In this document: piece after piece, positions 634-45,905 of the stretch
Position numbering within the stretch: the stretch's first letter is position 1
How the letters are laid out: each line of letters starts with the position of its first letter
Assembly (NCBI RefSeq): GCF_000252955.1
Contig: NC_014228.1
Coordinates: 2,643,232-2,707,231, forward strand
DNA: 64,000 nt
Origin: Xenorhabdus nematophila ATCC 19061
Lineage (GTDB): Bacteria > Pseudomonadota > Gammaproteobacteria > Enterobacterales > Enterobacteriaceae
Reading direction: 5' to 3'
Notes under the pieces: generated by a model
What the model was told of the DNA's origin: nothing
The model's input: the letters and a program-made list of their open reading frames with translations, nothing else
Databases searched by the model: none
Program-made: the position numbers and the translations under genes

Positions 634-3600
634 AATTTTTCGCACTATTTATCCAACGGCCGGTTGCGACAACATTGCTGAGTTTAGCTATCACTCTGTG
701 TGGTGCTCTCAGCTTTGTCTTACTGCCCGTATCGCCGCTGCCACAAGTCGACTTTCCTGTCATTACAGTCCAGGCCTCTATGCCCGGTGCATCACCTGAA
801 ACCATGGCATCTTCTGTAACAACGCCGCTGGAACGGGCATTGGGCAGAATTGCAGGCGTCAAAGAGATGTCCTCTGCCAGCTCATTGGGAACCTCTTTTA
901 TTTATCTGGAATTTGATCTGAATCGGGATATCAATGGGGCAGCACGAGATGTCCAGGCTGCCATTAATGCAGCGCAAAGTTTGTTGCCTTCGGGTATGCC
1001 AAGTAAACCGCAATATTATAAAGCTAACTTATCGGATGCGCCGATCATGCTTCTGACCCTCACATCAGACAATTATAGTGAAGGACAACTGTATGATCTC
1101 GCGTCCACCAGAATGGCACAGAAACTTTCTCAAATAGAAGGTGTCAGTCAAGTCAGTGTTAGTGGTAGTTCATTACCGGCAATACGCGTTGAGCTAAATC
1201 CTAATGCCCTTTTTAATCAAGGCGTTTCTCTTAATGATGTCGGCGACGCCATCAGTAATGCCAATGTTCGGCGCCCGACAGGTTATGTTGATTCTGATAC
1301 ACAAAGTTGGCAATTACACACCAATGACGAACTGAAAACCGCAGACAGTTATCGCTCCATTATTGTGCATTACAATAATGATGCCCCTGTTCGTTTACAG
1401 GATGTCGCAACTGTTAAGAACTCCGTCGAAGATATTCGGGCAGCCGGTATGTCCGGTAATAAATCCGCGATTGCCATCATTATTCGTCGTGAAGCGGGGG
1501 CAAATATCATTGCCACTGTTCAGCGTATTCGAGAACAACTTCCCATTCTGCAAGAATTATTACCTGCCAGTATTCACCTGAACATAGCACAAGATCGCTC
1601 ACCCACTATTCGTGCTTCCCTGCAAGAAGTGGAGCAGGCACTCGCCATTGCTGTTGCTTTGGTTATTTTGGTGGTCTTTCTGTTCTTGCGTTCAGGCCGT
1701 GCCACACTGATCCCCGCCATTGCGGTGCCGGTGTCATTGATTGGTACTTTTACCGCCATGTACTTGTGTGGTTTTAGCTTGAATAACCTTTCGCTAATGG
1801 CATTGACCATTGCCACAGGGTTTGTTGTCGATGATGCCATTGTCGTACTGGAAAATATATCCCGCCATCTTGATGCCGGAATGAAACCAATGCAAGCGGC
1901 CTTCAAAGGAGTCAGGGAAGTTGGGTTCACTGTGCTGGCCATGAGTCTGTCTCTCATTGCAGTGTTTATTCCTCTTGTATTAATCGATGAACTGCTCGGT
2001 AGATTATTCCGGGACTTCGCGGTAACGCTTGCAACCGCAATTGGGATTTCATTGCTGGTTTCGCTGACCTTAACCCCAATGATGTGTGCACATTTGCTTA
2101 AGTCATCGCCAATAAAAGCACAAAAACAGAAACGGGGCTTCGGTAAGATATTATTAAAAGTTCAGCAAAATTACGGGCGCTCCTTAAAATGGATCCTCAA
2201 TCACACTCGCTGGGTACTGCTCACATTGGTCGGTATTATCGCCCTGAATATCTGGCTTTATATCAGTATTCCAAAAACCTTTTTTCCTCAACAAGATACA
2301 GGGAAAATGTTAGGTTTTATCGTTGCTGATCAAAGCATTTCATTTCAGGCTATGCGTGAAAAAGTAAAACGCTTTATGCAGATAGTCGATGCCGATCCGA
2401 CCGTAGATAATGTCGTGGGATTTACGGGAGGTGATAGCATCAATACAGGTTTCATGTTTGTTTCACTGAAACCGCTCGAAGAGCGCACTGAAAGTATCCA
2501 GCAAGTTATCACTCGATTGAGGGGCCAACTCACGAATGAAGCGGGAGCCCGTTTATATTTAATTCCTGTTCAGGATCTCAGATCCGGTGGACGGGGAGCT
2601 AAATCTACTTATCAATTTAGTTTATTGTCTGACGATTTCAGTGAATTACGTAAGTGGAGTCCCGTCATCAAGCGAGCGTTGGAAAAACAGCCTCAATTGG
2701 TGGATGTCAATTCTGATGAAGATGAAGACGCTAAAGGCGCTGAAATAGCGATTACCTATGATCGTGATATCATGGCGCGTTTGGGGATCAACGTCTCTGA
2801 TGCCAATAATTTACTCCATAATGCCTTTGGACAGCGGCAAATTTCCACAATTTACCAGCCTTTAAATCAGTATAAGGTTGTCATGGAAGTCGCCCCGCAA
2901 TACAACCAAGATCCCAGTGCACTGGAGAAAATGTTTGTTATCAATGCCAAAGGGGAACGCATCCCACTTTCCTACTTTGCTCGCTGGTATCCTTCTAATG
3001 CCCCGCTGGACGTGTACCATCAAGGGCTTTCGGCGTCCTCTACCATTGCTTTTGATGTTGCACCAGGATACACATTGTCCGATGCAATCGGTGCGATAGA
3101 AAGAACAATGACAGAACTCAGTGTTCCCTCAGCAGTTCGCAGTTCTTTCTCAGGCACTGCACAAGATTTCCAGGATAGCGAACGTTCCCAATTGCTGGTG
3201 ATCCTCGCCGCCATCGTAACCGTTTATTTGGTGCTGGGCGTTTTATATGAGAGTTATATTCATCCGCTGACAATCCTTTCTACCCTGCCTTCTGCTGGCG
3301 TCGGTGCTTTGCTGGCACTGGAGTTGTTCAACACCCCATTTAGCCTGATTGCCATGATTGGGATTATGCTACTGGTCGGGATTGTCAAGAAAAATGCCAT
3401 TATCATGGTGGATTTTGCCCTTGAAGCACAGAGAAGCGGCAAACTCAGCGCGCAAGAGGCGATATTTCAGGCCAGTTTATTGCGTTTCCGACCCATAATG
3501 ATGACAACCCTTTCTGCTTTGTTCGGCGCTTTGCCTTTGGTGATGAGCAATGGCGACGGTGCTGAGTTGCGCTTCCCATTAGGCATTACGATTGTCGGGG

Positions 3601-7641: not shown

Positions 7642-7735
7642 GCCCTGAAAACGAAGAACTAAAAAAGTTTTACTGTAAGACTAGGAACCACCTCCTTGGC
7701 TAGCTCAATCTCCCTTGGGCTGGCCTTTTCTTTTA
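7642..7735 (+). ncRNA. cyaR: Small regulatory RNA CyaR (RyeE)
   Basis: The segment contains AGGAACCACCTCCTT (7683-7697), the conserved single-stranded seed of E. coli CyaR, which pairs with ribosome sites of ompX, luxS, nadE and others via Hfq. It is followed by the CAATCTCCCTT core (7706-7716) and a hairpin (GGCTAGC ... GGGCTGGCC) with a T-rich end near 7726-7735, i.e. a terminator. The 5' part (GCCCTGAAAACGAAGAAC) resembles the E. coli 5' end. Its location just after trhP (yegQ) matches E. coli. The 5' end is approximate. Confidence 0.85.
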
Positions 7736-9293: not shown

Positions 9294-10091
9294 TTACCAC
9301 CATTGATGAAAATGATGGACAGGTCCAACTCCCCGCCCAACGTCAAGGGTATCTGCCTGTGCCAGCGCATTTTGTAAATATGTTTTTGCCACCGGCAATG
9401 TACTTTGCCAATCGGGATAACGCGGGCGCAATGCAGCAAGTGCGGCAGAAAGCGTACAACCAGTACCATGAGTATGTCGTGTATTGACTCTTGGCGCAGT
9501 AAAACGCCACTCTCCTTCAAGGGTAAAAAGCCAATCCGGGCTTTCGCCATTGTTCAAATGTCCCCCTTTCAATAAAACCGCCTGACACCCCATTAAAAGT
9601 AATTCTCGTCCTTGCTGTAGCATATCCACTTCCGTTTCAGCGAGATTACATTTCAACATCGCAGCAGCTTCAGGCAAATTAGGGGTTATCAAAGAAACAA
9701 TCGGCAGTAATTGCTCTATCATTGTCGAAATAGCTTCCGGTGATAACAAGGGATCACCACTCTTCGCTACCATGACAGTATCCAGTACAATGTGAGGAAT
9801 CGGATAACGGCGCAATGATTCTGCTACTACAGCGATATTGGCTGCATTTAATAACATGCCAATTTTAGCACTGTCTATTTTAACATCGGAAAGAACAGAT
9901 TCGAGTTGGGCAGAAACAAAAAGAGGATCAATATTATAAACCGATTGAACGCCCATTGTATTTTGAGCAACCAGCGCAGTGATGACCGTTGTACCGTAAG
10001 CGCCAAGCGCGGAAAAAGTTTTTAAATCAGCTTGAATGCCAGCTCCCCCACTAGGGTCAGTGCCAGCGATAGTCAGTGAGTTAATTCTCAT
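9294..10091 (-). CDS. thiD: Hydroxymethylpyrimidine/phosphomethylpyrimidine kinase ThiD
   Basis: This 265-residue ribokinase-fold enzyme phosphorylates HMP to HMP-P and then HMP-PP for thiamine synthesis. Visible are the N-terminal AGTDPSGGAGIQADLK substrate loop, VLDTVMVAKSGDPLL and the C-terminal anion-hole motif HGTGCTLSAALAA with its catalytic Cys/Ser region. The length equals the family norm (about 266). It is preceded by a TPP riboswitch (10148-10226), so expression should fall when thiamine pyrophosphate is high. It is convergent with fbaB across 84 bp. Confidence 0.96.
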   Translation of the reverse strand: MRINSLTIAGTDPSGGAGIQADLKTFSALGAYGTTVITALVAQNTMGVQSVYNIDPLFVSAQLESVLSDVKIDSAKIGMLLNAANIAVVAESLRRYPIPHIVLDTVMVAKSGDPLLSPEAISTMIEQLLPIVSLITPNLPEAAAMLKCNLAETEVDMLQQGRELLLMGCQAVLLKGGHLNNGESPDWLFTLEGEWRFTAPRVNTRHTHGTGCTLSAALAALRPRYPDWQSTLPVAKTYLQNALAQADTLDVGRGVGPVHHFHQWW

Positions 10092-10147
10092 GATGGTGAC
10101 TCCTATTCACCAGCAAAAGAAAAGCGGGTATCAAAACAGGAGATACC

Positions 10148-10226
10148 ATGACTTCCCTACGCCGGCATTATCCAGATCAGGTAATACGGGTACTTCTCAG
10201 TTCAATCAAGAACGCCCCGAGTCAAA
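10148..10226 (-). promoter_or_regulatory. TPP riboswitch (THI element) upstream of thiD
   Basis: Read on the minus strand, the segment carries the invariant TPP aptamer blocks in order: GACTCGGGG, CTGAGAAGTACCC, ACCTGATCTGGATAATGCC and GGCGTAGGGAAG. It lies 57 bp upstream of the thiD start in the same orientation. No strong terminator is seen between aptamer and start, so control of translation initiation is the more likely mode (inference). Confidence 0.95.
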
Positions 10227-10262
10227 ATAAAAATCACTCTATTAGTATCCCAATAGAGTGAT
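10225..10262 (-). terminator. Rho-independent terminator after the cold-shock gene
   Basis: A perfect 11-bp stem (ATCACTCTATT, 10233-10243, pairing with AATAGAGTGAT, 10252-10262) is followed on the minus strand by TTTTTATTTT. It would stop transcripts of the csp gene before they enter the thiD riboswitch. Confidence 0.8.
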
Positions 10263-29859: not shown

Positions 29860-30112
29860 GTGCGCCGGACATGGCGCGTAGCACTGCGAGGCGCAGTCTG
29901 ATAGCTGTGGTGGCTAAAAGACAACTTGGGAGTGCAAGTCTCCTACACACCCGGCAAGGGGAAGTGTTAGCTGAACGGCAAGGGTGTTCATCGCGAGATG
30001 AAATCTGAAGGAAGCCCGAAAGCAAAATACGGGTCTGACGAACAGGAAACGGTGATAGAAAGAGCAAATATGATGCGGGCTTATCAGCGCATGGTGGAAA
30101 ACAAAGGCGCGG
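29860..30112 (+). mobile_element. Truncated group II intron (5' ribozyme part plus start of its reverse transcriptase)
   Basis: The stretch begins GTGCGCC, the group II 5' consensus (GUGYG). It continues with typical domain I blocks: GGAGTGCAAGTCTCC, ACACCCGGCAAGGGGAAGTG, TTAGCTGAACGGCAAGGGTG, ATCGCGAGATGAAATCTGAA and GGAAGCCCGAAAGCAAAAT. From 30051 a frame reads ETVIERANMMRAYQRMVENK, then GA, the usual N-terminus of the intron-encoded protein (ERANLMRAYQRVVxNKGA), and it breaks off at NKGA. The reverse-transcriptase core, maturase and domains V/VI are absent. It cannot splice or move. Insertion directly after a terminator hairpin is the habit of group IIC introns. Confidence 0.82.
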
Positions 30113-30233: not shown

Positions 30234-30429
30234 TATACCCGTCGTCTTTCAAGTTGCAGCTTTGTTGGCTGCGCTCACTCACCCCAATCACATAATTAGC
30301 TATGCTCCTGGGGATTAATGAAAGGCTCCTGCCTTTCACCGGAGGCCAGCCTTTGGCTGGGCAAATTCGTTCCCGACGAATTTGTCATTCCCTTGCCGCC
30401 GCACTGCATCTTGAAATCCATTGGGTATA
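30234..30429. repeat. 196-bp inverted-repeat (MITE/REP-like) element
   Basis: The ends are inverted copies: TATACCC...TTTCAAGTTGCAG (30234-30258) and CTGCATCTTGAAAT...GGGTATA (30404-30429). Inside are two further stems, AGGCTCCTGCCTTTCACCGG and neighbours, and CAAATTCGTTCCCGACGAATTTG (split by TCCC). There is no ORF. Elements with the same TATACCCGTCGTCTTTCAAG start are, from memory, scattered through Xenorhabdus and Photorhabdus chromosomes. A worn one-arm copy occurs near 59781-59804. Confidence 0.8.
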
Positions 30430-31055
30430 TAATTAATTCATTATATTAAATCGGAGAACAATAATGCTATCGGAGTTTTAAACTTTGTTTATCTACCAAC
30501 AAAAAAATATTAAAAAAATCATTAATAACTTACTAAAAAAATAACTTAATAAAATTATTTATCAGGATAAAAAACGCCAATATAGTAATCAAATCATCAG
30601 CAAATTATTATAAAGATCTTTAAATATACCGCCTTACATCTACAAGCCATAAAAAAATTGCCCTAATAAACAAAGAATAATATAGACATCGACTCAAATG
30701 AGAATCACTATTGTATTGCAAAGGATTTTATAACTATGAGGAGACAAAGATGCATACTTGAAAAGTACCAAAAATAAAAACTTAATCATTAGTCGATAAA
30801 TATTAACTATTTTCCATTAAGGAGAGTGTTGAAAGATTGCGAGATTATCTGTAATAACACTATGATAGATGATGCCAATACCTATTAAATGAAAATAACA
30901 ATCTAATATCGGAAGATATAAAATAAAATATAGCACCCTTAATTACATCAATGCCAAAACATAAATTAATTAAGGTCAGGCAAATAATTAAATCTACTCA
31001 TTTACACCATAAATTACAAATAACTTGTAAACGGAATACATTCGTATAATTTATT
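30430..31055. other. AT-rich upstream region of the peptide synthetase
   Basis: About 625 bp, strongly AT-rich, no gene. TATAAT at 31045-31050 lies only 5 bp before the ATG, so it either yields a leaderless message or is chance; no Shine-Dalgarno precedes the start. Such AT-rich DNA is a likely target of H-NS-type silencing (inference). Confidence 0.4.
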
Positions 31056-34000
31056 ATGAGAATATCTGAGAATTCATTGCGTCCGAACTTATATCCTCTC
31101 CATCCTTCTCAGGAAGATGTGTTTTACGAACAAGCACTTTATGAGAATAATCCGATACACAACCTCAATTGGTATACTGTGATAGAAGAAGAGGTTGATA
31201 TAACCCTGTTACAAAAAGTGTGGAACGTATTACATCAACATATTGATATGTTGCGCTTGCGTATATCGGTTAATGCAGATAATGAAGCGATACAATATCT
31301 TGAAGAACAGAGTAAACCGGAAGCAATTATATTTCATGATGTTGCCATGCAGGCTGAGCCTGAAAAATCAGCAATACTCTGGATGAAACAACACCTTGAA
31401 ATACCAATGGATTATTTGAAGGAAACACCATATCAGATTTTCTTGATCCGTCTGGCTGATGAAAAGTATTATTTCTTCACTAAAATTCACCATATTATGA
31501 TTGACGGTGTCGGATTATACCGGCTTCATAAATATGTTCATAAATCATACAAATGCTTTAAGCATGGCACATCAATAGCATGGCTGTCAGATATTCCACA
31601 ATATTTAACAACAATAACCAAGGCAAGAGAATATTTAAGTACTATTCATTATGAAGAAGATAAAAAATATTGGCTTAATTTTCTAAAAGAAAATGAAATA
31701 CACCAATTAACACCTTACTATAAAAATACAGGGCCTGGTAATAGTACGTTAATATTACCCCTTCAAACTAAAAAAGATTTACTTGTTTTTTGCAATGAAC
31801 ATAAAACTAACTTACTGGCTGTCTTTTCTGGTCTTATCACTATTATGATGATAGAACTTACCGGGCAACAAGAGTTGGTATTTAACACGATCACACATGG
31901 AAGAAGGGAAAAAGCAGAAAAATATGTTGTTGGTATGCAGACAAGTACGTATCCCGTGTATTGCCACATCTCAAGCACATCCAGTGTGATTGAACAGATT
32001 AAGCGAATGGAATTAGCACTGAAAGACAGTTATCGTCACAGTAAATTTCCTCACTCACATCTTACCCGGCTTGCGAGCCAGCATAGGTTTTCTTTACCCA
32101 ATATATCTATATTTTATGAACGTTTTTATGAATCAGCCGCTGAAATTACCGAAAACCAATATCATCATCTGGATGAGGTATTTAATATTTATCCTATCGT
32201 CTTTCGATTAAAAGATTATGGATATAATCAGGAACTAAAAATAACAATCGATTATCGACAGGAATATTTTAGTGAGCCGGATATCAGCAGAATACTTGAG
32301 CGATCACAAAACTTATTCGTTGCCTTAATCAATAATCCTGCATTGTTAGTCAGTGAATTACCTATTTTATTGGAGCAGGAACGCCAAACATTACTGCATA
32401 TCTGGAACCAGCCCGATATACCGTATCCGCAAACCTGTACTCTCCAGCAGCAATTTGAGGCGCAGGCGGCAGCCAGACCGGACAGCGTGGCGCTGGTGTT
32501 TGAAGGGGAAACACTGACTTACCGCCAGTTAAATGAACGGGCGAACCAGTTGGCCGCGGTGATCCGGACACAATATCAGCAGCAGCACAATGCCCCGATG
32601 CCTGCTGATACGCTGGTGGCTTTGTATCTGGATCGCAGCCCGGAAATGGTGATCAGCATACTGGCGGTGCTGAAAGCCGGTGGAGCTTATGTGCCGATAT
32701 CTCCGCAATATCCGCCTGAGCGTATCCGGTTCATTTTGCAAGATACGGCATCACCCTGTGTAGTGACCCAGCAACAGTATCTGGCAACACTGGGGGAATA
32801 TACCCAGACACGGGTTGAGCCGCCCGTATTGATAGCTGCGGATGATCAAGCCGTGACAAAAAATCAGCCGCCAGAAAATCCGGCTCCTGTGAATACAGCT
32901 GCGGATCTGGCTTATGTCATCTATACGTCGGGCACGACCGGGCAACCGAAAGGCGTGTTGCAGACCCATCATAATGTTGTCCGGTTATTCGCAGCTACTC
33001 AGGGAGATTATCAGTTTGACCAGAATGATACCTGGGTGCTTTACCATGCTTACACCTTTGATTTCAGTGTCTGGGAATTATGGGGCGCATTGCTCTATGG
33101 CGGGCGTCTGATTATCCCGACAACAGAACACACGAAGGATTTCGGCAGATTCAGCCGCCTCTGTTCTGATCAGAAAGTTACCGTATTAAATCAGACGCCG
33201 GGGGCATTTTACGCCTTTATTGAGGCATCATTGAATATGGATGCTGCATTTCCCCATCTTCGCTACGTGATTTTCGGCGGCGATAAACTGAACCCGGTTC
33301 AATTAAAACCCTGGTGGAACCGTTACGGCGATCAGTCCCCGGTCCTGATTAATATGTATGGGATCACTGAAACAACCGTACATGTTACCTACAGGAAATT
33401 AACCCAGGATGACGCGATAACAGCATCCAATATTGGCCGGCCGTTAAATGACCTGTCTGCCTATGTGTTGAATCATAACGGTCAGCCCGTACCGATTGGT
33501 GCGCCCGGAGAGTTATACATCGGCGGTGCCGGGCTGGCGCGGGGATATTTAAACCGGCCAGAACTCACTGCCGAACGGTTTGTGGCAAACCCGTTTGCCA
33601 CGGATAAAGACAAAGAATACGGTTATACCCGCCTGTATAAAACCGGCGATTTGGTGCGCTGGCAACCGGATGGCAATCTGGAATATCTGGGGCGCAACGA
33701 TTTTCAGGTCACAATCCGCGGATATCGTATTGAACTGGGAGAAATTGAAAGTGCACTGGCTTTGCACCCACAGATCAAGCAGGCGGTGGTGATTGATTGT
33801 GAGCATGAAGGTAATAAAGCCCTGGTGGCTTATTTGGTTGCGAAAAATACGGTTGTGGAAAGCGAACTTTTAAACGATAAGCTGATCAGATACTTATCTG
33901 ACCACTTGCCGGAATATATGCTGCCAGCCAGCTTTACCTTTATTGACTCGATCCCTCTGACCCTGAACGGCAAAGTGGATCGCCGGGCATTACCAGAGCC

Positions 34001-37000
34001 GGTCTGGGGGAACAGAGACAGTTATGTGGCACCCCGCAATGCACTGGAAACCCGGCTCTGTACTCTTTGGCAAGAGGTCTTGGGGCTGGAACGGGTTGGC
34101 ATTGAAGATAACTTCTTCCGTATCGGGGGCAACTCTCTGACAGCGGTTAAGCTGACCGCCGCCATTCGCCGGGTTTTGTCAACCGAGGTATCACTGGCGC
34201 AATTGTTTGAACTGAAAACCATCGCAGGCCTGATAACCCAGATGGAACAGCAGACCTATACGGTTATCCCCCATCTGCCACGGGAGCGCTATCCGTTATC
34301 GTTTGCTCAGGAGCGGATGCTGTTTATCGAGCAGTTTGAACAGGGCTCTGATGCCTATCATATCCCTTATCTGGTTCAGCTGGATAAGGATGCCTGTCTG
34401 CCATTGTTAGCAACCGCCATCAACCGGCTGGCTGAACGCCACTCAGTAATGAAGATGGTGTACCACACTAATGATGACGGTCAGATTTACCAGCAAATAT
34501 TGCATGAAAATCTGGTTATCAAATCCCAATCCTGTGGAGATATTAATGCACTTCTGGACACCGTTCGCGCTGAGATAGCCACTCCGTTTGATCTGACCAC
34601 AGAACCCAGTCTGCGCCTGTGTCACTATCCGGTTTCTGACAGCCACTATTTATTATTGTTATGGCACCATATCGCCATTGATGGCTGGTCAATTGATATC
34701 TTTATGGCTGAACTGGCGGAAATTTACCAGTCCTTGCGGGAAAACCGCGACAGCCAGCTTGCTGCGCTGGATATCACCTATGGCGATTATGCCGCATGGC
34801 AACGCGACTATTTACAGGGTGACATACGTGAACGCCAGCTTACCTACTGGCGACAGGCTTTAGCCAGCCATGAATCACTGGCCTTGCCAACCGATTACCC
34901 CAGACCGGCTCAGGTGAATTATCAGGGATGTAATTTCAGTTTTGGGCTGAATACCCGGCTATCTGAACAGTTAAGGAGTCTGGCAAAAACACAGGAAACC
35001 ACCCTGTATACCGTGTTGCTCAGTGCCTTTTATGTCACGCTGGCAAAATTATCCGGGCAAAACGATATCGTACTGGGGACTCCAACCGATAACCGCCACC
35101 ATGCCCAGACTCAGCCCCTGATTGGGATGTTTGTCAATTCACTGGTCTTAAGGGCACAGTTGCAACAGACTGTCAGCGTGGAAGCCCTGATTGAGCAGAC
35201 CCATAAACAGGTTGCCGAAGCCAAAGCCTATCAGGATATGCCGTTTGAACAGCTCCTTGATGCCCTGAATATTGTACGTGATACCGCCCGCCACCCGATT
35301 TTTCAGATCATGTTTGGTTTACAGAGCTTTGGAGAAAATCCGTCAGACAACCGCCTGCCATTCAGGCCGGTGACTCTGGATGAGCCGCTATACAGCCCCG
35401 CCAAGTTTGACCTCAGCCTGTTTATGTCCGACGGACAAACCGAGATTACCGGTTGCCTGAATTACGCAGTCAGCCTGTTTAATGAAACCACCATCGTCAG
35501 GCTGACAGAGAGCTATCAACGGGTACTGGAAGCCTTTGTGGCAGACCAGAAACAACCGCTGTCCGCGCTGGATATTCTGTCCGCACAGGAGCGCCATACC
35601 CTGCTGCATACCTGGAACCAGACCGATGCGCCTTATCCACAGGACAAAACCCTGCCACAACTGTTTGAAGCTCAGGTGGAAAGGACACCGGATAACGGGG
35701 CACTGGTGTTTGAAGGCGCAACACTGACCTACCGCCAGCTTAACGAACGGGCAAACCAGCTGGCCTGTGTGATCCGCGAACGCTATCAGCAACAGAATAA
35801 TAAAACGATGCCGGCTGACACCCCGATAGCCCTGTATCTTGATCGCAGCCCGGAAATGGTGATCAGTATTCTGGCGGTGCTGAAAGCCGGCGGGGCTTAT
35901 GTGCCGATTTCCCCCGTCTATCCCGCTGAGCGAGTACAGTTTATTCTGACTGACACAGCAGCGCCTTGTGTGCTGACCCAACAGCGGCATCTGGCTACAC
36001 TGGCAGAATACAGCCAGACACTCACGGCACAACCGGTACTCATCGCGGCGGATGACCGGACAATCACCGCCGGCCGGCCGGTGGAAAATCCGGTGCGGCT
36101 AAATCGACCAACCGATCTGGCCTATATCATTTACACGTCAGGCACCACCGGTCAGCCCAAAGGCGTTATGATTGAGCACAAAAATGTGGCGCATATGGTG
36201 GCAACGCAGGCCGAATTTTTCGATGCAACAAAGAGAACAAAAGCCTTAATGTTTGCTGCTTATGTATTCGATGGTTCTGTTTTCGAATTATTCTCTGGCT
36301 TATTTAATGGCCTGACTATTTACCTTTGCAGCGAAACAGAACGTAATGCTCCTGCAATTGCCAGACTCATTCAACGGAAAAATATTGAGATTGCCGCCTT
36401 ACCTCCGGCCATTTTGAAGTTGTTAATCGGCACGGAGTTACCCTCCCTGCAATTATTGGTTACAGCGGGAGAGTCCCCCTCCCTGGATTTTCTGGCATAT
36501 TTCAGCCAATACAGCAGCGTACTCAATGCTTATGGCCCGACAGAAGTTACCGTTGGGGCGACCGGGAATGTGTATCAACGGGGGGATATTGCAACCAATA
36601 TCGGCAAAGCGATTCATAATGTCCGCCTTTACGTCCTTGATAGTGATGGCAATCTGTCTCCCGTCGGCGCACCGGGAGAATTGTATATCGGCGGCGCCGG
36701 ACTGGCGCGGGGATATTTAAACCGGCCAGAACTCACTGCCGAACGGTTTGTGGCAAACCCGTTTGCCACGGATAAAGACAAAGAATACGGTTATACCCGC
36801 CTGTATAAAACCGGCGATTTGGTGCGCTGGCGACCGGACGGCAAGCTGGAATATCTGGGTCGCAATGATTTTCAGGTCAAAATCCGTGGTTATCGCATCG
36901 AGCCGGGAGAAATCGAAAGTGCGCTTGCTTCCCATCCACAAGTCAAACAGGCGGTAGTGATTGACCGTGAGCATAACGGAAATAAAGTCCTGGCTGCGTA

Positions 37001-40000
37001 TCTGGTTACGGAAGGATCACTGTCCGATGACAGCCTGATGGGCTATCTCTCCTCCCGCCTGCCGGAATATATGCTGCCAGCCAGCTTCACCTTTATTGAC
37101 TCGATCCCTCTGACCCTGAACGGCAAAGTGGATCGCCGGGCATTACCAGAGCCGGTCTGGGTAAACAGAGACAGTTATGTGGCACCCCGCAATGCACTGG
37201 AAACCCGGCTCTGTACTCTTTGGCAAGAGGTCTTGGGGCTGGAACGGGTTGGCATTGAAGATAACTTCTTCCGTATCGGGGGCAACTCTCTGACAGCGGT
37301 TAAGCTGACCGCCGCCATTCGCCGGGTTTTGGCAACCGAGATATCACTGGCGCAATTGTTTGAACTGAAAACCATCGCAGGCCTGATAACCCAGATGGAA
37401 CAGCAGACCTATACGGTTATCCCCCATCTGCCACGGGAGCGCTATCCGTTATCGTTTGCTCAGGAGCGGATGCTGTTTATCGAGCAGTTTGAACAGGGCT
37501 CTGATGCCTATCATATCCCTTATCTGGTTCAGCTGGATAAGGATGCCTGTCTGCCATTGTTAGCAACCGCCATCAACCGGCTGGCTGAACGCCATTCAGT
37601 AATGAAGATGGTGTACCACAGCGACGATACAGGCCAGATTTACCAGCAAATATTGCATGAAAATCTGGTTATCAAATCCCAATCCTGTGGAGATATTAAT
37701 ACGCTTCTGGACACCGTTCGCGCTGAGATAGCCACTCCGTTTGATCTGACCACAGAACCCAGTCTGCGCCTGTGTCACTATCCGGTTTCTGACAGCCACT
37801 ATTTATTATTGTTATGGCACCATATCGCCATTGATGGCTGGTCAATTGATATCTTTATGGCTGAACTGGCGGAAATTTACCAGTCCTTGCGGGAAAACCG
37901 CGACAGCCAGCTTGCTGCGCTGGATATCACCTATGGCGATTATGCCGCATGGCAACGCGACTATTTACAAGGGGACCGGCGTGAACGCCAGCTTACCTAC
38001 TGGCGACAGGCTTTAGCCAGCCATGAATCACTGGCCTTGCCAACCGATTACCCCAGACCGGCTCAGGTGAATTATCAGGGATGTAATTTCAGTTTTGGGC
38101 TGAATACCCGGCTATCTGAACAGTTAAGGAGTCTGGCAAAAACACAGGAAACCACCCTGTATACCGTGTTGCTCAGTGCCTTTTATGTCACGCTGGCAAA
38201 ATTATCCGGGCAAAACGATATCGTACTGGGGACGCCAACCGATAACCGCCACCATGCCCAGACTCAGCCCCTGATTGGGATGTTTGTCAATTCACTGGTC
38301 TTAAGGGCACAGTTGCAACAGACTGTCAGCGTGGAAGCCCTGATTGAGCAGACCCATAAACAGGTTGCCGAAGCCAAAGCCTATCAGGATATGCCGTTTG
38401 AACAGCTCCTTGATGCCCTGAATATTGTACGTGATACCGCCCGCCACCCGATTTTTCAGATCATGTTTGGTTTACAGAGCTTTGGAGAAAATCCGTCAGA
38501 CAACCGCCTGCCATTCAGGCCGGTGACTCTGGATGAGCCGCTATACAGCCCCGCCAAGTTTGACCTCAGCCTGTTTATGTCCGACGGACAAACCGAGATT
38601 ACCGGTTGCCTGAATTACGCAGTCAGCCTGTTTAATGAAACCACCATCGTCAGGCTGACAGAGAGCTATCAACGGGTACTGGAAGCCTTTGTGGCAGACC
38701 AGAAACAACCGCTGTCCGCGCTGGATATTCTGTCCGCACAGGAGCGCCATACCCTGCTGCATACCTGGAACCAGACCGATGCGCCTTATCCACAGGACAA
38801 AACCCTGCCACAACTGTTTGAAGCTCAGGTGGAAAGGACACCGGATAACGGGGCACTGGTGTTTGAAGGCGCAACACTGACCTACCGCCAGCTTAACGAA
38901 CGGGCAAACCAGCTGGCCTGTGTGATCCGCGAACGCTATCAGCAACAGAATAATAAAACGATGCCGGCTGACACCCCGATAGCCCTGTATCTTGATCGCA
39001 GCCCGGAAATGGTGATCACTATTCTGGCGGTGCTGAAAGCCGGCGGGGCTTATGTGCCGATTTCCCCCGTCTATCCCGCTGAGCGAGTACAGTTTATTCT
39101 GACTGACACAGCAGCGCCCTGTGTGCTGACCCAACAGCGACATCTGGCTACACTGGCAGAATACAGCCAGACACTCACGGCACAACCGGTACTCATCGCG
39201 GCGGATGACCGGACAATCACCGCCGGCCGGCCGGTGGAAAATCCGGTGCGGCTAAATCGACCAACCGATCTGGCCTATATCATTTACACGTCAGGCACCA
39301 CCGGTCAGCCCAAAGGCGTTATGATTGAGCACAAAAATGTGGCGCATATGGTGGCAACGCAGGCCGCATTTTTCGATGCAACAAAGAGAACAAAAGCCTT
39401 AATGTTTGCTGCTTATGTATTCGATGGTTCTGTTTTCGAATTATTCTCTGGCTTATTTAATGGCCTGACTATTTACCTTTGCAGCGAAAAAGAACGTAAT
39501 GCTCCTGCAATTGCCAGACTCATTCAACGGGAAAATATTGAGATTGCCGCCTTACCTCCGGCCATTTTGAAGTTGTTAATCGGCACGGAGTTACCCTCCC
39601 TGCAATTATTGGTTACAGCGGGAGAGTCCCCCTCCCTGGATTTTCTGGCATATTTCAGCCAATACAGCAGCGTACTCAATGCTTATGGCCCGACAGAAGT
39701 TACCGTTGGGGCGACCGGGAATGTGTATCAACGGGGGGATATTGCAACCAATATCGGCAAAGCGATTCATAATGTCCGCCTTTACGTCCTTGATAGTGAT
39801 GGCAATCTGTCTCCCGTCGGCGCACCGGGAGAATTGTATATCGGCGGCGCCGGACTGGCGCGGGGATATTTAAACCGGCCAGAACTCACTGCCGAACGGT
39901 TTGTGGCAAACCCGTTTGCCACGGATAAAGACAAAGAATACGGTTATACCCGCCTGTATAAAACCGGCGATTTGGTGCGCTGGCGACCGGACGGCAAGCT

Positions 40001-43000
40001 GGAATATCTGGGGCGCAATGATTTTCAGGTCAAAATCCGTGGTTATCGCATCGAGCCGGGAGAAATCGAAAGTGCCCTTGCTTCCCATCCACAAGTCAAA
40101 CAGGCGGTAGTGATTGACCGTGAGCATAACAGCCATAAAGTCCTGGCCGCTTATCTGGTCACAGATGCCATGTTATCAAATGAAATTCTGGTTGAGCACG
40201 TATCTGAGCGGTTGCCGGAATACATGGTGCCGGCCAGCTTCACCTTTATTGACTCGATCCCTCTGACCCTGAACGGCAAAGTGGATCGCCGGGCATTACC
40301 AGAGCCGGTCTGGGGGAACAGAGACAGTTATGTGGTGCCCCGCAATGCACTGGAAACCCGGCTCTGTGCCATTTGGCAGGAAATATTAGGGCTGGAACGG
40401 ATTGGCATTGAAGATAACTTCTTCCGTATCGGGGGTGATTCGATTGTTAGTATCCAGCTGGTCTCCAGACTGCGGCAGGCCGGCTTTTCACTGCAAGTTA
40501 AATCGATTTTTGAAGCACCGACCGTGGCCCGGTTAGCCCTGCTGCTGGCACAGTCATCATTCACAGAAAATGTGGTTGCCGAACAGGGATTATTAAGCGG
40601 GGAATTTGATTTATTACCTATCCAGCAAACTTTCTTCGACTGGGATTTATCGAATCCACACCATTGGAACCAGGCATTTATGATTCGGGTTCCCGGTAAT
40701 ATTAAGTCAGCACAGATTGAACAGGCCCTGATAATGCTGGCTGAACGACATGATATGTTACGTGCTCGCTTTATCGATACCGGAAACGGCTACCGTCAGC
40801 GTTATTCCAGATTTCAGGGCTATTCCGAGATTCAGGACTGCTCCGGGGAAATGCCATCTTCACATCCTCTTTTACAGCACTGCGATATCCGGGGATTAAA
40901 TAAGGAAGAGCAACATCAACAATTGACCCAATGGCAAAATGGGTTCGATTACAACAACGGACCGTTGTGGCAAGCTGGGCACCTTACCGGGTATGCAGAT
41001 GGCAGTGCCCGGTTATTCTTCGCATTCCACCATCTGATTATTGATACTGTGTCCTGGCGAATTATTGCTGAAGATATGCGCTTGTTATTACAGGGCATGA
41101 CATTACCACCGAAAACCAGCAGTTACCGGCAATGGGTAATCACTGTCCATCGTTATGCACAGCAGCATCAGGATGAAGTGCCCTACTGGCAACAGGTGAT
41201 AGCAGGAAACGACATCAAACCCGCACAGGATGACCTCACTCGTCACCTGTTGAGCATTTCTGCTGAGATGACGGACATACTTCTGCATGAAGCCAACACT
41301 GGTTACCATACAGAAATTAACGATTTACTGCTAAGTGCACTGACACTGGCTCTGCAAGAGACTTTCTCCCAAGCCGTAAACCACATCCTTCTGGAAGGAC
41401 ATGGACGGGAATCCATTGATAACACATTGGATATTTCTGAAACCGTGGGCTGGTTCACGACAATGTATCCCGTTCGCCTGGCAATGCAGACAGATATGGC
41501 TGAAACCATCATTTACACCAAAGAGATGCTTCGTACTGTACCGAACAAAGGCATTGGTTACAGCACGTTACATCAAGCAGGACACCTGACGGGCGATTTA
41601 CCGGCTATCAGTTTCAACTATCTCGGCCAGTTAGGAGCCACCAGCCATCAAGACTGGTGCATAACCAACGATGATTGTGGGGCTGTGACAGCCAGTGAAA
41701 ATGGCAGTCATTTACTACTGGGCATCAATGGTGCCGTTCAGATGGGAAAACTGCAATTTAGTGTGGATTCCCGCTTGCCACAGACCCGGACAGCGATGTT
41801 TATCACAGCATTTGAGCAAGCACTCAACCACGTCATCGCGACTGGTCAAAAGCAGGCCCAATCAGGAGGCGTAAAAACGCCCAGCGATTATGGTGTTGAA
41901 GGACTTTCCGTCAAGCGCTTGTGTAATCTTCAACAGCGGTATCAGATTGAAGCCCTGTACCCTGCCACCAGCTTGCAGCAGGGATTTATTTATCATCATC
42001 TGGCTCATCCACAAGATGATGCTTATCGTGTACAAATGCTGTTGGATTATCACACCAGCGTCGATTTTGCTATCTATCAACAAGCCTGGTCACTGACTTC
42101 GCTGCGTTTCCCTATTCTCAGAACGGCATTTGATTGGGAAGAAAAAATATTACAGATCGTAACAATGGATACCAGTATTGGGCCAGCGAACTTCAAGATC
42201 AAAGATATCAGTCAGTTATCAGAAGAGAACCGAAACAAGGCGATTGACGAAATTCAACAACACGATCGAATCCGGCCTTTTAATTTAAATCAGCCCGGCT
42301 TAATCCGTTTCACTCTCATCAAGCAGGATGAACAGTTAATAACAGTATTGATCACACAACATCATTGTATTGCCGATGGCTGGAGTAATCCGATTCTATT
42401 ACAAACTGTGCATGGGTATTACAACCAACTGATAAACGGGCAAACACCCCGGGTTGTGGTGGAACAGGCTTATCTGGCAACTCAGCAATATCATCTGGAT
42501 CATAAAGCTGAGTCAGACACCTATTGGTCGGAACGTAAAGCACAATTTCAAGGAGCCAATCATTTTTCTGCTCTGTTAAGTCATCACGTTGATTTAACGC
42601 AGATAAAAACTGTGGAAAAACCCGCTGAACAGCGACTCACTGTACAGGGGAACGCTTATGAGCAACTGAAGAACATGTCCAGGACACAAGGTGTTACTCT
42701 GAATGTGATACTGCAATTTGCCTGGCATAAATTACTGCACAGCTACACGGGTGATGAACAGACTATTGTGGGCACTACTGTATCCGGCCGCGATGTACCA
42801 GTGGATGAGATTGAATCCAGTGTTGGCCTGTATATCAATACATTACCGCTGATGGTGCAATGGGATCAGACCAGCAGTGTGGCTGCCGTTTTACAGGACA
42901 TACAGAAAGATATCGCCGCACTCAATAGCCACAGTGCCGTTTCACTTGCCAGTTTACAATCCGACGGAGAACGACTGTTCCATAGCCTGCTGATCTTTGA

Positions 43001-45905
43001 AAATTATCCAGTTCCAGTGGCGAGCGAAAACAAGGAAGGTATAGAGCACACTCTGACGTTCCGTCAGGCCGTCGAAAAAGTGGAGTATCCGATCTCGTTG
43101 ATGGCCTATGAGCAGGGCAACAGTTTAATAATGAAATTAAGTTATGGTGAAGACTGGCTGACGGAAGAACAAGCCCGACGTTTGCTTTGTCAGCTCGAAC
43201 GTATTCTGCTCGCGGTAGCCTGCAACCCGAATCAGTCACATACGTCAATAACATACCTCAGTGAAGAAGAACGCCATACCCTGCTGCATATCTGGAACCA
43301 GACCGATGCGCTTTTTCCGCAGGATAAAACCCTGCCACAACTGTTCGAAGCTCAGGTGGAAAGGACACCGGATAATATCGCACTGGTGTTTGAAGGAGAC
43401 ACACTGACCTACCGCCAGCTTAACGAGCGGGCAAACCAACTGGCTCATCATCTGATTGCATTAGGGATTCGCCCGGACGACAGAGTGGCGATTTATGCCG
43501 AACGCAGTCTCTATTTGGTCGTGGGATTGTTGGCTATCCTCAAGGCCGGCGGTGCTTATGTGCCGCTTGATCCGGCACAGCCAAGCGAGCGGTTGGTCTA
43601 TATGCTTAAAGACTCCGCACCCGTTGCATTACTGACCCAAACAGCGTTGTTTGATACTCTGACCGGCACCCTGTCTGCGACATCCTTACTGGCAGATTCC
43701 TTATCAGTAAATTCATTACCGATCATCACACCGGACAATCAGGGATCGTTAATAACAGCCCTGCCGGATCACAATCCGAATATCGCAGAACTGACTGCCG
43801 ATCATCTGGCTTATGTTATCTATACTTCTGGTTCAACGGGTCAGCCCAAGGGCGTAATGAGCAGTCATCAAACCCTGTGTAATCGGTTATTGTGGTTCGT
43901 TCGTGATATTGCGATATCACCACTGGTGGCCGCACTGAAAACCAGTATCAGCTTTGTCGATTCAATCACCGAAACACTGGGTACGTTGCTGGCTGGCGGT
44001 AAGCTGGTGGTGTTCAACAACCATGACGTGAAAGATCCCATCCGTTTCAGTCAAGGTTTGCGCCGTTTCGGTGTCAATTATCTGGTGGTTGTACCTTCAC
44101 TGCTCAAGCTCTTGCTACAAAATCGCGATGATAGTGATTGTCTGAAACCAATTCGCCTATTAATTTGCAGCGGCGAACGACTCGCGCCTGAGCTGGCACG
44201 ACAGGTTGTGGCACATTACCCTAGGCTTCGGTTGCTCAATCTTTATGGTTCTTCTGAAATCAACGGCGATGCCACATGGTATGAATACCGTGCTGCTGAG
44301 GGTATACCGGAAGTCTCCGTGATCGGCAAGCCGATCGCCAATATCCAAAGCTATATCCTTGACGGCTCTGGTCAACCTGTTCCCATCGGAGTTACGGGTG
44401 AAATCTATATTGCTGGCCGAGGCGTCGCCCGTGGCTATCTGAACCGCCCGGAATTGACTGCCGAACGTTTTCTCATCGATCCATTCTCCCCACAACCTAA
44501 TGCACGTATGTTCAAAACGGGTGATCTCGGTCGCTGGCTGCCCGATGGTAATATTGAGTATCTCGGTCGCAATGACTTTCAGGTAAAAATCCGTGGTTAC
44601 CGCATTGAACTGGGGGAAGTTGAAAACGTCCTCACTTCTCACCCACAGGTAGAACAGGCGGTGGTAATCGACCATAATCACAAAGGGAATACCGTGCTGG
44701 TCGCGTATCTGGTGGCAGCTGGCGCACTGTCTGATGATACCCTGATCAGGTATCTCTCTTCCCGCCTGCCCGAATACATGCTGCCTGCCAGCTTTACTCG
44801 TGTTGAGTCCGTTCCATTGACCCTGAATGGTAAGCTAAACCGTCACGCCCTGCCTGAACCAATCTGGGGGGATCGTAACAATTATGCCGCGCCCCGCAAT
44901 GCACTGGAAACCCAGTTATGTACCCTTTGGCAGGAGATATTGGGGCTGCATCAGGTTGGTATCGACGATAATTTCTTCCGTATCGGTGGTAATTCCTTAA
45001 TAGCAATTAAGTTGACCACAGCGATACGCCATGAAACAGGCATTGATATTCCTTTGAATGTTTTATTTAACTGTAAATGTATTTCTTTGTTATCTCAATG
45101 GCTGACAACAAATAATGCAAAATTCAGTTTACTTAATTCCTTAACACCCAAATCAATTGCAACCAATAAATTGTTTATGGTTCATCCCGCTAATGCCGGT
45201 AGTGAAGTCTATGAATCTCTGGCAAATACCTTATCTGATGTGTATAAGTGCATAGGCATCGATAATTATAATCTTTGCACAGATAACCAAATAAATTCAC
45301 TTCACCAATTAGCTCAAATCTATATGGAGTTGATTCTGACAGAAACGTCTATTGATCAACCTATTCATATCCTGGGATGGTCATTAGGCGGACAATTAGC
45401 GATGGAAATTGCATTTAGATTAGAACAGCTTGGTGCAAAAAAAATTCAGCTGTTCTTATTAGATGCTATCATTAATAACGATGAGCTAGGAGAGCTCAGA
45501 AACAAATTAGATATGTCAAATAAATATCGGGAGATTACTGAAAAATTGCAGGAAATGGGAGCAAGCGACACTTATATCAATAAGGTATTGGAAGCAGTAC
45601 CATTTGAATTTGGCATAGCCAACTGCAATTTAAGCGGAAAACTATCCCACACAAACATCACGTTATTTAAAGCTGGTCAAATGAGTCCATTTAACAAAGA
45701 AGGGACTGGATTCACGATGAATCAATTGATAATAGAAACACCAGATAATAATATTTCGCAATGGACAACCAATCCATTAGTCATTAAATTGCTTCATGAT
45801 CGTTATCACGAAAATATTATCGAAGCTGTTTCCATTATCAGCACAGAAATAGTCAATACATTCGAAATTAAGGATAATATGACTATACCCTATGGACTAC
45901 AATAA
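31056..45905 (+). CDS. xneA: Four-module non-ribosomal peptide synthetase, xenematide type
   Basis: A 4949-residue NRPS. Approximate domains: C1 10-440 (HHIMIDG 145-151), A1 455-975, T1 (Ser1027), C2 1080-1500 (HH 1204-1205), A2 1520-2025, T2 (Ser2078), C3, A3, T3 (Ser3129 in GGDS), epimerase 3180-3600 (HHLIIDT at 3325; EGHGRE), C4 (HHCIADG at 3769), A4 4065-4595, T4 (Ser4647), thioesterase 4700-4935 (GWSLG, Ser4776). Specificity codes read by eye: A1 DFWNIGMVHK (threonine), A2 and A3 DGFAVAAVGK (aromatic-like), A4 VDTVISLGDK (close to the beta-alanine code VDWVISLADK). The leading C domain implies an acylated first residue. Acyl-Thr-aromatic-aromatic-beta-Ala closed by the thioesterase is the xenematide plan. 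No MbtH gene is nearby. The symbol is from memory. Confidence 0.92.
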   Translation: MRISENSLRPNLYPLHPSQEDVFYEQALYENNPIHNLNWYTVIEEEVDITLLQKVWNVLHQHIDMLRLRISVNADNEAIQYLEEQSKPEAIIFHDVAMQAEPEKSAILWMKQHLEIPMDYLKETPYQIFLIRLADEKYYFFTKIHHIMIDGVGLYRLHKYVHKSYKCFKHGTSIAWLSDIPQYLTTITKAREYLSTIHYEEDKKYWLNFLKENEIHQLTPYYKNTGPGNSTLILPLQTKKDLLVFCNEHKTNLLAVFSGLITIMMIELTGQQELVFNTITHGRREKAEKYVVGMQTSTYPVYCHISSTSSVIEQIKRMELALKDSYRHSKFPHSHLTRLASQHRFSLPNISIFYERFYESAAEITENQYHHLDEVFNIYPIVFRLKDYGYNQELKITIDYRQEYFSEPDISRILERSQNLFVALINNPALLVSELPILLEQERQTLLHIWNQPDIPYPQTCTLQQQFEAQAAARPDSVALVFEGETLTYRQLNERANQLAAVIRTQYQQQHNAPMPADTLVALYLDRSPEMVISILAVLKAGGAYVPISPQYPPERIRFILQDTASPCVVTQQQYLATLGEYTQTRVEPPVLIAADDQAVTKNQPPENPAPVNTAADLAYVIYTSGTTGQPKGVLQTHHNVVRLFAATQGDYQFDQNDTWVLYHAYTFDFSVWELWGALLYGGRLIIPTTEHTKDFGRFSRLCSDQKVTVLNQTPGAFYAFIEASLNMDAAFPHLRYVIFGGDKLNPVQLKPWWNRYGDQSPVLINMYGITETTVHVTYRKLTQDDAITASNIGRPLNDLSAYVLNHNGQPVPIGAPGELYIGGAGLARGYLNRPELTAERFVANPFATDKDKEYGYTRLYKTGDLVRWQPDGNLEYLGRNDFQVTIRGYRIELGEIESALALHPQIKQAVVIDCEHEGNKALVAYLVAKNTVVESELLNDKLIRYLSDHLPEYMLPASFTFIDSIPLTLNGKVDRRALPEPVWGNRDSYVAPRNALETRLCTLWQEVLGLERVGIEDNFFRIGGNSLTAVKLTAAIRRVLSTEVSLAQLFELKTIAGLITQMEQQTYTVIPHLPRERYPLSFAQERMLFIEQFEQGSDAYHIPYLVQLDKDACLPLLATAINRLAERHSVMKMVYHTNDDGQIYQQILHENLVIKSQSCGDINALLDTVRAEIATPFDLTTEPSLRLCHYPVSDSHYLLLLWHHIAIDGWSIDIFMAELAEIYQSLRENRDSQLAALDITYGDYAAWQRDYLQGDIRERQLTYWRQALASHESLALPTDYPRPAQVNYQGCNFSFGLNTRLSEQLRSLAKTQETTLYTVLLSAFYVTLAKLSGQNDIVLGTPTDNRHHAQTQPLIGMFVNSLVLRAQLQQTVSVEALIEQTHKQVAEAKAYQDMPFEQLLDALNIVRDTARHPIFQIMFGLQSFGENPSDNRLPFRPVTLDEPLYSPAKFDLSLFMSDGQTEITGCLNYAVSLFNETTIVRLTESYQRVLEAFVADQKQPLSALDILSAQERHTLLHTWNQTDAPYPQDKTLPQLFEAQVERTPDNGALVFEGATLTYRQLNERANQLACVIRERYQQQNNKTMPADTPIALYLDRSPEMVISILAVLKAGGAYVPISPVYPAERVQFILTDTAAPCVLTQQRHLATLAEYSQTLTAQPVLIAADDRTITAGRPVENPVRLNRPTDLAYIIYTSGTTGQPKGVMIEHKNVAHMVATQAEFFDATKRTKALMFAAYVFDGSVFELFSGLFNGLTIYLCSETERNAPAIARLIQRKNIEIAALPPAILKLLIGTELPSLQLLVTAGESPSLDFLAYFSQYSSVLNAYGPTEVTVGATGNVYQRGDIATNIGKAIHNVRLYVLDSDGNLSPVGAPGELYIGGAGLARGYLNRPELTAERFVANPFATDKDKEYGYTRLYKTGDLVRWRPDGKLEYLGRNDFQVKIRGYRIEPGEIESALASHPQVKQAVVIDREHNGNKVLAAYLVTEGSLSDDSLMGYLSSRLPEYMLPASFTFIDSIPLTLNGKVDRRALPEPVWVNRDSYVAPRNALETRLCTLWQEVLGLERVGIEDNFFRIGGNSLTAVKLTAAIRRVLATEISLAQLFELKTIAGLITQMEQQTYTVIPHLPRERYPLSFAQERMLFIEQFEQGSDAYHIPYLVQLDKDACLPLLATAINRLAERHSVMKMVYHSDDTGQIYQQILHENLVIKSQSCGDINTLLDTVRAEIATPFDLTTEPSLRLCHYPVSDSHYLLLLWHHIAIDGWSIDIFMAELAEIYQSLRENRDSQLAALDITYGDYAAWQRDYLQGDRRERQLTYWRQALASHESLALPTDYPRPAQVNYQGCNFSFGLNTRLSEQLRSLAKTQETTLYTVLLSAFYVTLAKLSGQNDIVLGTPTDNRHHAQTQPLIGMFVNSLVLRAQLQQTVSVEALIEQTHKQVAEAKAYQDMPFEQLLDALNIVRDTARHPIFQIMFGLQSFGENPSDNRLPFRPVTLDEPLYSPAKFDLSLFMSDGQTEITGCLNYAVSLFNETTIVRLTESYQRVLEAFVADQKQPLSALDILSAQERHTLLHTWNQTDAPYPQDKTLPQLFEAQVERTPDNGALVFEGATLTYRQLNERANQLACVIRERYQQQNNKTMPADTPIALYLDRSPEMVITILAVLKAGGAYVPISPVYPAERVQFILTDTAAPCVLTQQRHLATLAEYSQTLTAQPVLIAADDRTITAGRPVENPVRLNRPTDLAYIIYTSGTTGQPKGVMIEHKNVAHMVATQAAFFDATKRTKALMFAAYVFDGSVFELFSGLFNGLTIYLCSEKERNAPAIARLIQRENIEIAALPPAILKLLIGTELPSLQLLVTAGESPSLDFLAYFSQYSSVLNAYGPTEVTVGATGNVYQRGDIATNIGKAIHNVRLYVLDSDGNLSPVGAPGELYIGGAGLARGYLNRPELTAERFVANPFATDKDKEYGYTRLYKTGDLVRWRPDGKLEYLGRNDFQVKIRGYRIEPGEIESALASHPQVKQAVVIDREHNSHKVLAAYLVTDAMLSNEILVEHVSERLPEYMVPASFTFIDSIPLTLNGKVDRRALPEPVWGNRDSYVVPRNALETRLCAIWQEILGLERIGIEDNFFRIGGDSIVSIQLVSRLRQAGFSLQVKSIFEAPTVARLALLLAQSSFTENVVAEQGLLSGEFDLLPIQQTFFDWDLSNPHHWNQAFMIRVPGNIKSAQIEQALIMLAERHDMLRARFIDTGNGYRQRYSRFQGYSEIQDCSGEMPSSHPLLQHCDIRGLNKEEQHQQLTQWQNGFDYNNGPLWQAGHLTGYADGSARLFFAFHHLIIDTVSWRIIAEDMRLLLQGMTLPPKTSSYRQWVITVHRYAQQHQDEVPYWQQVIAGNDIKPAQDDLTRHLLSISAEMTDILLHEANTGYHTEINDLLLSALTLALQETFSQAVNHILLEGHGRESIDNTLDISETVGWFTTMYPVRLAMQTDMAETIIYTKEMLRTVPNKGIGYSTLHQAGHLTGDLPAISFNYLGQLGATSHQDWCITNDDCGAVTASENGSHLLLGINGAVQMGKLQFSVDSRLPQTRTAMFITAFEQALNHVIATGQKQAQSGGVKTPSDYGVEGLSVKRLCNLQQRYQIEALYPATSLQQGFIYHHLAHPQDDAYRVQMLLDYHTSVDFAIYQQAWSLTSLRFPILRTAFDWEEKILQIVTMDTSIGPANFKIKDISQLSEENRNKAIDEIQQHDRIRPFNLNQPGLIRFTLIKQDEQLITVLITQHHCIADGWSNPILLQTVHGYYNQLINGQTPRVVVEQAYLATQQYHLDHKAESDTYWSERKAQFQGANHFSALLSHHVDLTQIKTVEKPAEQRLTVQGNAYEQLKNMSRTQGVTLNVILQFAWHKLLHSYTGDEQTIVGTTVSGRDVPVDEIESSVGLYINTLPLMVQWDQTSSVAAVLQDIQKDIAALNSHSAVSLASLQSDGERLFHSLLIFENYPVPVASENKEGIEHTLTFRQAVEKVEYPISLMAYEQGNSLIMKLSYGEDWLTEEQARRLLCQLERILLAVACNPNQSHTSITYLSEEERHTLLHIWNQTDALFPQDKTLPQLFEAQVERTPDNIALVFEGDTLTYRQLNERANQLAHHLIALGIRPDDRVAIYAERSLYLVVGLLAILKAGGAYVPLDPAQPSERLVYMLKDSAPVALLTQTALFDTLTGTLSATSLLADSLSVNSLPIITPDNQGSLITALPDHNPNIAELTADHLAYVIYTSGSTGQPKGVMSSHQTLCNRLLWFVRDIAISPLVAALKTSISFVDSITETLGTLLAGGKLVVFNNHDVKDPIRFSQGLRRFGVNYLVVVPSLLKLLLQNRDDSDCLKPIRLLICSGERLAPELARQVVAHYPRLRLLNLYGSSEINGDATWYEYRAAEGIPEVSVIGKPIANIQSYILDGSGQPVPIGVTGEIYIAGRGVARGYLNRPELTAERFLIDPFSPQPNARMFKTGDLGRWLPDGNIEYLGRNDFQVKIRGYRIELGEVENVLTSHPQVEQAVVIDHNHKGNTVLVAYLVAAGALSDDTLIRYLSSRLPEYMLPASFTRVESVPLTLNGKLNRHALPEPIWGDRNNYAAPRNALETQLCTLWQEILGLHQVGIDDNFFRIGGNSLIAIKLTTAIRHETGIDIPLNVLFNCKCISLLSQWLTTNNAKFSLLNSLTPKSIATNKLFMVHPANAGSEVYESLANTLSDVYKCIGIDNYNLCTDNQINSLHQLAQIYMELILTETSIDQPIHILGWSLGGQLAMEIAFRLEQLGAKKIQLFLLDAIINNDELGELRNKLDMSNKYREITEKLQEMGASDTYINKVLEAVPFEFGIANCNLSGKLSHTNITLFKAGQMSPFNKEGTGFTMNQLIIETPDNNISQWTTNPLVIKLLHDRYHENIIEAVSIISTEIVNTFEIKDNMTIPYGLQ
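33908..40213 (+). repeat. Tandem 3153-bp duplication of an NRPS T-C-A unit
   Basis: Bases 33908-37060 and 37061-40213 are almost identical along their length (constant offset 3153 bp, 1051 codons). Translated differences are few, for example HTNDDG/HSDDTG, QGDI/QGDR, VISI/VITI, QAEFF/QAAFF and SETERN/SEKERN. A third partial copy of the A-domain end (ASFTFIDSIPLTLNGKVDRR) follows at 40214. The A1 C-terminal subdomain (from about 33500) is also nearly identical to those of A2 and A3. Confidence 0.95.

Follow-up and report, generated by a model that had tools for sequence, protein, structure and literature searches.

What a single very large synthetase gene makes in Xenorhabdus nematophila, an insect-killing bacterium, and how it came to lie where it does with two of its four modules nearly alike, are the questions raised by the locus described here. 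The gene, one ORF of 4949 aa whose sole stop codon is terminal, occupies positions 31056-45905 of the forward strand in the stretch of 64,000 nucleotides that was analysed (the window). It is almost certainly XNC1_2713 of X. nematophila ATCC 19061, the gene for the synthetase of xenematide, a small antibiotic, and the link between this gene and its product is already known.

Architecture and identity of the synthetase

The domain order C-A-T/C-A-T/C-A-T-E/C-A-T-TE and the domain coordinates put forward in an earlier sequence-only reading are reproduced by Pfam (five Condensation, four AMP-binding, four PP-binding and one Thioesterase match), by a scan of the own genome, which gave the limits of the condensation-type domains, and by a motif search. 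All domains lie on the forward strand. The first module begins with C1 (31089-32396, motif HHIMIDG), predicted to be a starter C domain, and A1 (32448-33998), followed in module 2 by C2 (34284-35606, HHIAIDG) and A2 (35652-37145, with boundaries taken from a 1051-residue offset to the third A domain). Module 3 comprises C3 (37437-38759, HHIAIDG), A3 (38805-40298) and, at its end, the fourth condensation-type domain (40602-41858, HHLIID), whose match to TIGR01720 exceeds the cut-off by just 0.1 bit (74.3 versus 74.2 bits) and which, the model being barely passed, is taken as an epimerisation (E) domain. The last module holds C4 (41952-43286, HHCIADG), A4 (43323-44876) and a TE (45168-45902) located by Pfam and by its GWSLG nucleophile motif. 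This arrangement, in which a single gene holds all four modules, the third closes with E and the last with TE, is that expected of a xenematide synthetase, the starter subtype of C1 being a prediction.

The earlier observation of intact active sites is confirmed for the core motifs that were sought. Each of the five condensation-type domains carries HHxxxD, each of the four T domains GG[ND]S and each of the four A domains the A3 core motif, and the TE has GWSLG. The pattern for A motif 8 was matched by three of the four A domains (A1 has T at the pattern's K position) and that for A5 by two, with NMYGITE in A1 and NLYGSSE in A4.

The substrate codes, read by motif alignment, are DFWNIGMVHK for A1, DGFAVAAVGK for both A2 and A3, and VDTVISLGDK for A4, with the tenth letter K assumed in every case. 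An alignment of 69 A domains gave these codes again at the corresponding columns; the domains were drawn from ORFs of at least 800 aa in 15 of 50 relative loci together with the X. nematophila gene. We take the first code to mean Thr, the second an aromatic residue (Trp) and the last beta-Ala, and with these assumed meanings the order of the A domains is Thr, Trp, Trp, beta-Ala, as had been read by hand from the sequence (Thr, aromatic, aromatic, beta-Ala), the DGFAVAAVGK code fitting aromatics generally, Trp, Phe and Tyr alike. A structure-database search with A2 returned the general family only.

Domain order and codes are compatible with a product of the form acyl-Thr-aromatic-aromatic-bAla, and the following assembly can be proposed. 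Module 1 would load Thr, which C1 would acylate with phenylacetate, and modules 2 and 3 would contribute one aromatic residue apiece, as a rule Trp. From the presence of E, a D configuration is predicted for residue 3, and C4, from its position after E, is predicted to accept a D-residue donor; no measured configuration of xenematide was found in the literature searched for it. Module 4 would then add beta-Ala, and the TE would close the ring by joining beta-Ala onto the Thr hydroxyl.

The identification of the gene goes by map position rather than by sequence comparison. Synthetase blocks of the own genome were matched, by our own reading, to the locus tags published in a table of PMC5313471, and interpolation between the anchors XNC1_2467 and XNC1_2781 places the gene at tag 2705-2719. 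Since this range, within ATCC 19061, contains XNC1_2713, listed in that table as the xenematide NRPS, the two are equated; what they share is map position, a single large NRPS gene and the expected product (PMC6305712, PMC5313471). According to a passage of the review PMC6305712, a knockout by Crawford et al. 2011 tied XNC1_2713 to production of xenematide A, so that the earlier proposal of a xenematide-type synthetase is supported by both the tag range and the published mutant. In PMC5313471, XNC1_2713 is given as 5.33 times higher in the wild type than in an lrp mutant, and the methods section has xenematide A at m/z 663.3; for phenylacetyl-cyclo(Thr-Trp-Trp-bAla), the structure named in the sequence-only reading, an [M+H]+ of 663.29 was calculated by hand. 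One figure legend in that paper has xenematide A at m/z 466.3 instead, which is taken for a slip because 466.3 is also the value that the paper lists for xenocoumacin 1. In PMC10715044, xenematide is mentioned in passing.

Close homologues and the history of modules 2 and 3

A 1316-aa piece covering the last module was compared with 30 Xenorhabdus genomes, the own genome (G000, 100%) included, and high matches were found in three of the 29 others (92-96% identity): G007 (96%), G006 (93%) and G012 (92%), the next best match being at 67%. Judged by frame lengths and coordinates, G006 is probably X. budapestensis DSM 16342 and G012 probably X. indica DSM 17382. The whole gene is present in G007, where it encodes 4967 aa with 94.5% protein identity to the X. 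nematophila synthetase, whereas in X. budapestensis and X. indica contig or scaffold breaks cut the homologue short. For X. budapestensis, production of xenematides is reported in passages of PMC8868522 and PMC8318700.

Modules 2 and 3 of the X. nematophila gene repeat at a distance of 3153 bp and are near-identical through C and A, the parts concerned lying at 34182-36922 and 37335-40075 (forward strand). Divided into 14 bins of 200 columns, this C-A part of about 2.7 kb is 97.5-100% identical in every bin but one, which stands at 94.5%. Two antisense ORFs of 214 aa each (35388-36032 and 38541-39185) are shadow ORFs of this module pair.

Such near-identity could stem from a fresh, whole-module duplication in the X. 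nematophila strain instead of recombination between old modules; the identity of the bins speaks for it, and a single recent copying event could account for the X. nematophila pattern, repeated events not being required. This explanation is nonetheless improbable, as G007 holds the same two modules. In the comparison of X. nematophila with G007, columns 0-2758 contain 64 species-specific, no orthologous and two crossed sites, whereas columns 2759-3251 contain seven species-specific, 68 orthologous and one crossed site, the boundary at column 2759 having been set post hoc as the first orthologous site. Because 68 of the 76 informative sites past that boundary join each module to the module of the same number in the other species, the module duplication predates the split between X. 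nematophila and G007, and a fresh duplication of whole modules is rejected on these counts.

Recombination between two old modules is thus the preferred reading of the C-A part. Since the lack of orthologous sites in columns 0-2758 could be explained by homogenisation in X. nematophila alone, the sites were polarised with X. budapestensis. Changes shared by both copies versus confined to one number 24:6 in X. nematophila, 17:75 in G007 and 64:69 in X. budapestensis, and comparison with X. budapestensis before the boundary gives 117, 0 and 3 species-specific, orthologous and crossed sites for X. nematophila and 87, 20 and 6 for G007, all of this being weak evidence given that the polarising copy is inverted and gapped on its scaffold. 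On these counts, homogenisation of the C-A part is strong and recent in X. nematophila, where one event would suffice, and partial at most in G007 and X. budapestensis. In the first 200 columns, module 2 of X. nematophila is nearer to module 3 of G007 (94.4%) than to module 2 of G007 (78%), which suggests that module 3 was the donor in the copying and module 2 the recipient. For synthetases, concerted evolution has been described in PMC4256081, and is mentioned in PMC9205934, for which reason modules 2 and 3 are to be seen as a new example and not as a new process.

At the start of the X. budapestensis contig (L008, 1-5274), the repeated module is present twice, in head-to-head orientation on either side of masked or gapped sequence; faulty scaffolding across the duplicated modules 2 and 3 is the probable cause.

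Relatives in Xenorhabdus and Photorhabdus

Several more distant relatives in Photorhabdus and Xenorhabdus are spread over two genes and have other codes. Examples are those of Photorhabdus asymbiotica (L023) and X. stockiae (L011), in which the split falls after the third module, with other A codes and without the beta-Ala-type code. The first genes of these pairs, of about 3630-3660 aa, have the Thr code first and comprise modules 1-3 with E, and they are 79% (P. asymbiotica) and 69% (X. stockiae) identical to residues 1-3629 of the X. nematophila protein. The P. asymbiotica homologue is mentioned in the review PMC6305712, and its other A codes and lack of the beta-Ala-type code speak against xenematide as its expected product. 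A report of an antiSMASH 'xenematide' cluster with 100% similarity in P. akhurstii, as given in PMC9491552, stands against confinement of the gene to Xenorhabdus; the P. akhurstii loci in the relative set (L021, L036) are short fragments.

That the gene of X. nematophila makes a different acylated depsipeptide of these genera on a four-module synthetase merely built like that of xenematide, as might be thought from the many relatives that have long stretches in common with it at 60-80% identity and yet other module sets, is very hard to credit, and is rejected by code comparison and locus identity: the beta-Ala-type code VDTVIS(L/F)GDK occurs in just three of the 69 A domains, those of the X. 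nematophila gene, L002 (X. indica) and L008 (X. budapestensis), and in the published tables and text the locus in ATCC 19061 is assigned to xenematide (PMC6305712, PMC5313471).

Chromosomal position and edges of the shared DNA

In X. nematophila the gene is flanked on the left by phoP, phoQ and a roxA-like JmjC gene, and on the right by cobB (SIR2), lolEDC-like genes and mfd, the names being read from Pfam matches. The distance from roxA to cobB is 16.7 kb. For the 29 other genomes, the same interval is 112-186 bp in eight, about 1.36 kb in seven, 1.37-1.55 kb in eleven, 3.6 kb in one and 10.6-11.1 kb in two; three of these values, for G007 (157 bp) and two of the 1.36-kb group, were recalculated by hand. 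A tblastn search (E up to 1e-30) of 14 of these roxA-cobB stretches gave no relative of the NRPS, and the remaining 15 intervals are too short to hold one. The three carriers of a homologue, G006, G007 and G012, are among the eight with short intervals, at only 146-158 bp, and the gene therefore lies at different chromosomal places in different species. A conserved chromosomal site was considered and rejected: none of the 29 other genomes gave an NRPS relative in the roxA-cobB interval, and comparison of the flanking genes with the 50 relative loci, whose flanks extend for at most 10 kb and are often cut by contig ends, gave LolD-type matches only (32-40%).

The roxA-cobB spot seems to take insertions repeatedly, because three loci of other Xenorhabdus (L098, L101 and L109) hold 11.1, 10.6 and 3.6 kb of DNA there. 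A group II intron remnant lies at 29987-30080 on the forward strand in X. nematophila (Rfam RF02001, 50.3 bits, gathering threshold 32), and no ORF of at least 120 aa that could be its reverse transcriptase is present between roxA and the synthetase gene. In G007, an ORF directly preceding the synthetase gene (L096, 1955-2995, reverse strand) looks, by eye, like a transposase of the IS630 type. Elsewhere in the window, a TPP riboswitch (10137-10229, reverse strand) lies upstream of a phosphomethylpyrimidine kinase gene (9294-10091, reverse strand), and the small RNA CyaR (7642-7730, forward strand; RF00112, 82.7 bits) adjoins a peptidase U32 gene.

The DNA common to X. nematophila and G007 runs from 30426 to 45902 at 94.9% identity. 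At its left edge it adjoins a 196-bp inverted-repeat element (30234-30429) of the form TATACCC...GGGTATA, which from its look we take to be ERIC- or MITE-like. ERIC elements are described in PMC3091717 as miniature non-autonomous mobile elements. No further copy of the 196-bp element was found in the window at E 1e-3, and the sequence directly to its left has, by eye, some faint likeness to G007. The right edge falls at 45902 for X. budapestensis also, and at 45887 for X. indica, and the last codons of the X. nematophila gene (45884-45902, forward strand; residues PYGLQ) apparently start with the left end of such an element. In both X. budapestensis and G007 the end of the gene runs into a TATACCC...GGGTATA inverted-repeat element, whereas X. 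indica is without one and reads straight through TA at that point. Because the gene end meets the element in some species and not in X. indica, the proteins end differently, the C-terminal tails being IKDNMTIPYGLQ in X. nematophila, a 29-residue stretch in G007, and IKDNVTIPYRFQDAV and IKDNATIN in X. budapestensis and X. indica. The three homologues thus differ from the X. nematophila gene both in chromosomal place and in tail, and the shared block apparently ends inside an inverted-repeat element that supplies the last residues of the enzyme. We infer that relocation may have proceeded through recombination at such elements.

Taken as a whole, a tentative account, to which we give slightly less than an even chance, is that the promoter and the single gene form a one-gene unit that moves between Xenorhabdus chromosomes and is bounded by short inverted-repeat elements, with the coding sequence now finishing in one of them. 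Inside the gene, copying of the C-A part by recombination between modules 2 and 3 would make the pair of Trp modules evolve jointly but leave their T-domain ends separate, with T2 and the E-facing T3 kept different.

What is added to a known gene, its movement and the likeness of its two Trp modules, is modest. Homogenisation within the gene that stops abruptly close to where the A domain ends bears on the points at which synthetase modules may be cut and swapped, and the smallness of the case, two modules in two complete genes, makes it one that can be studied directly.
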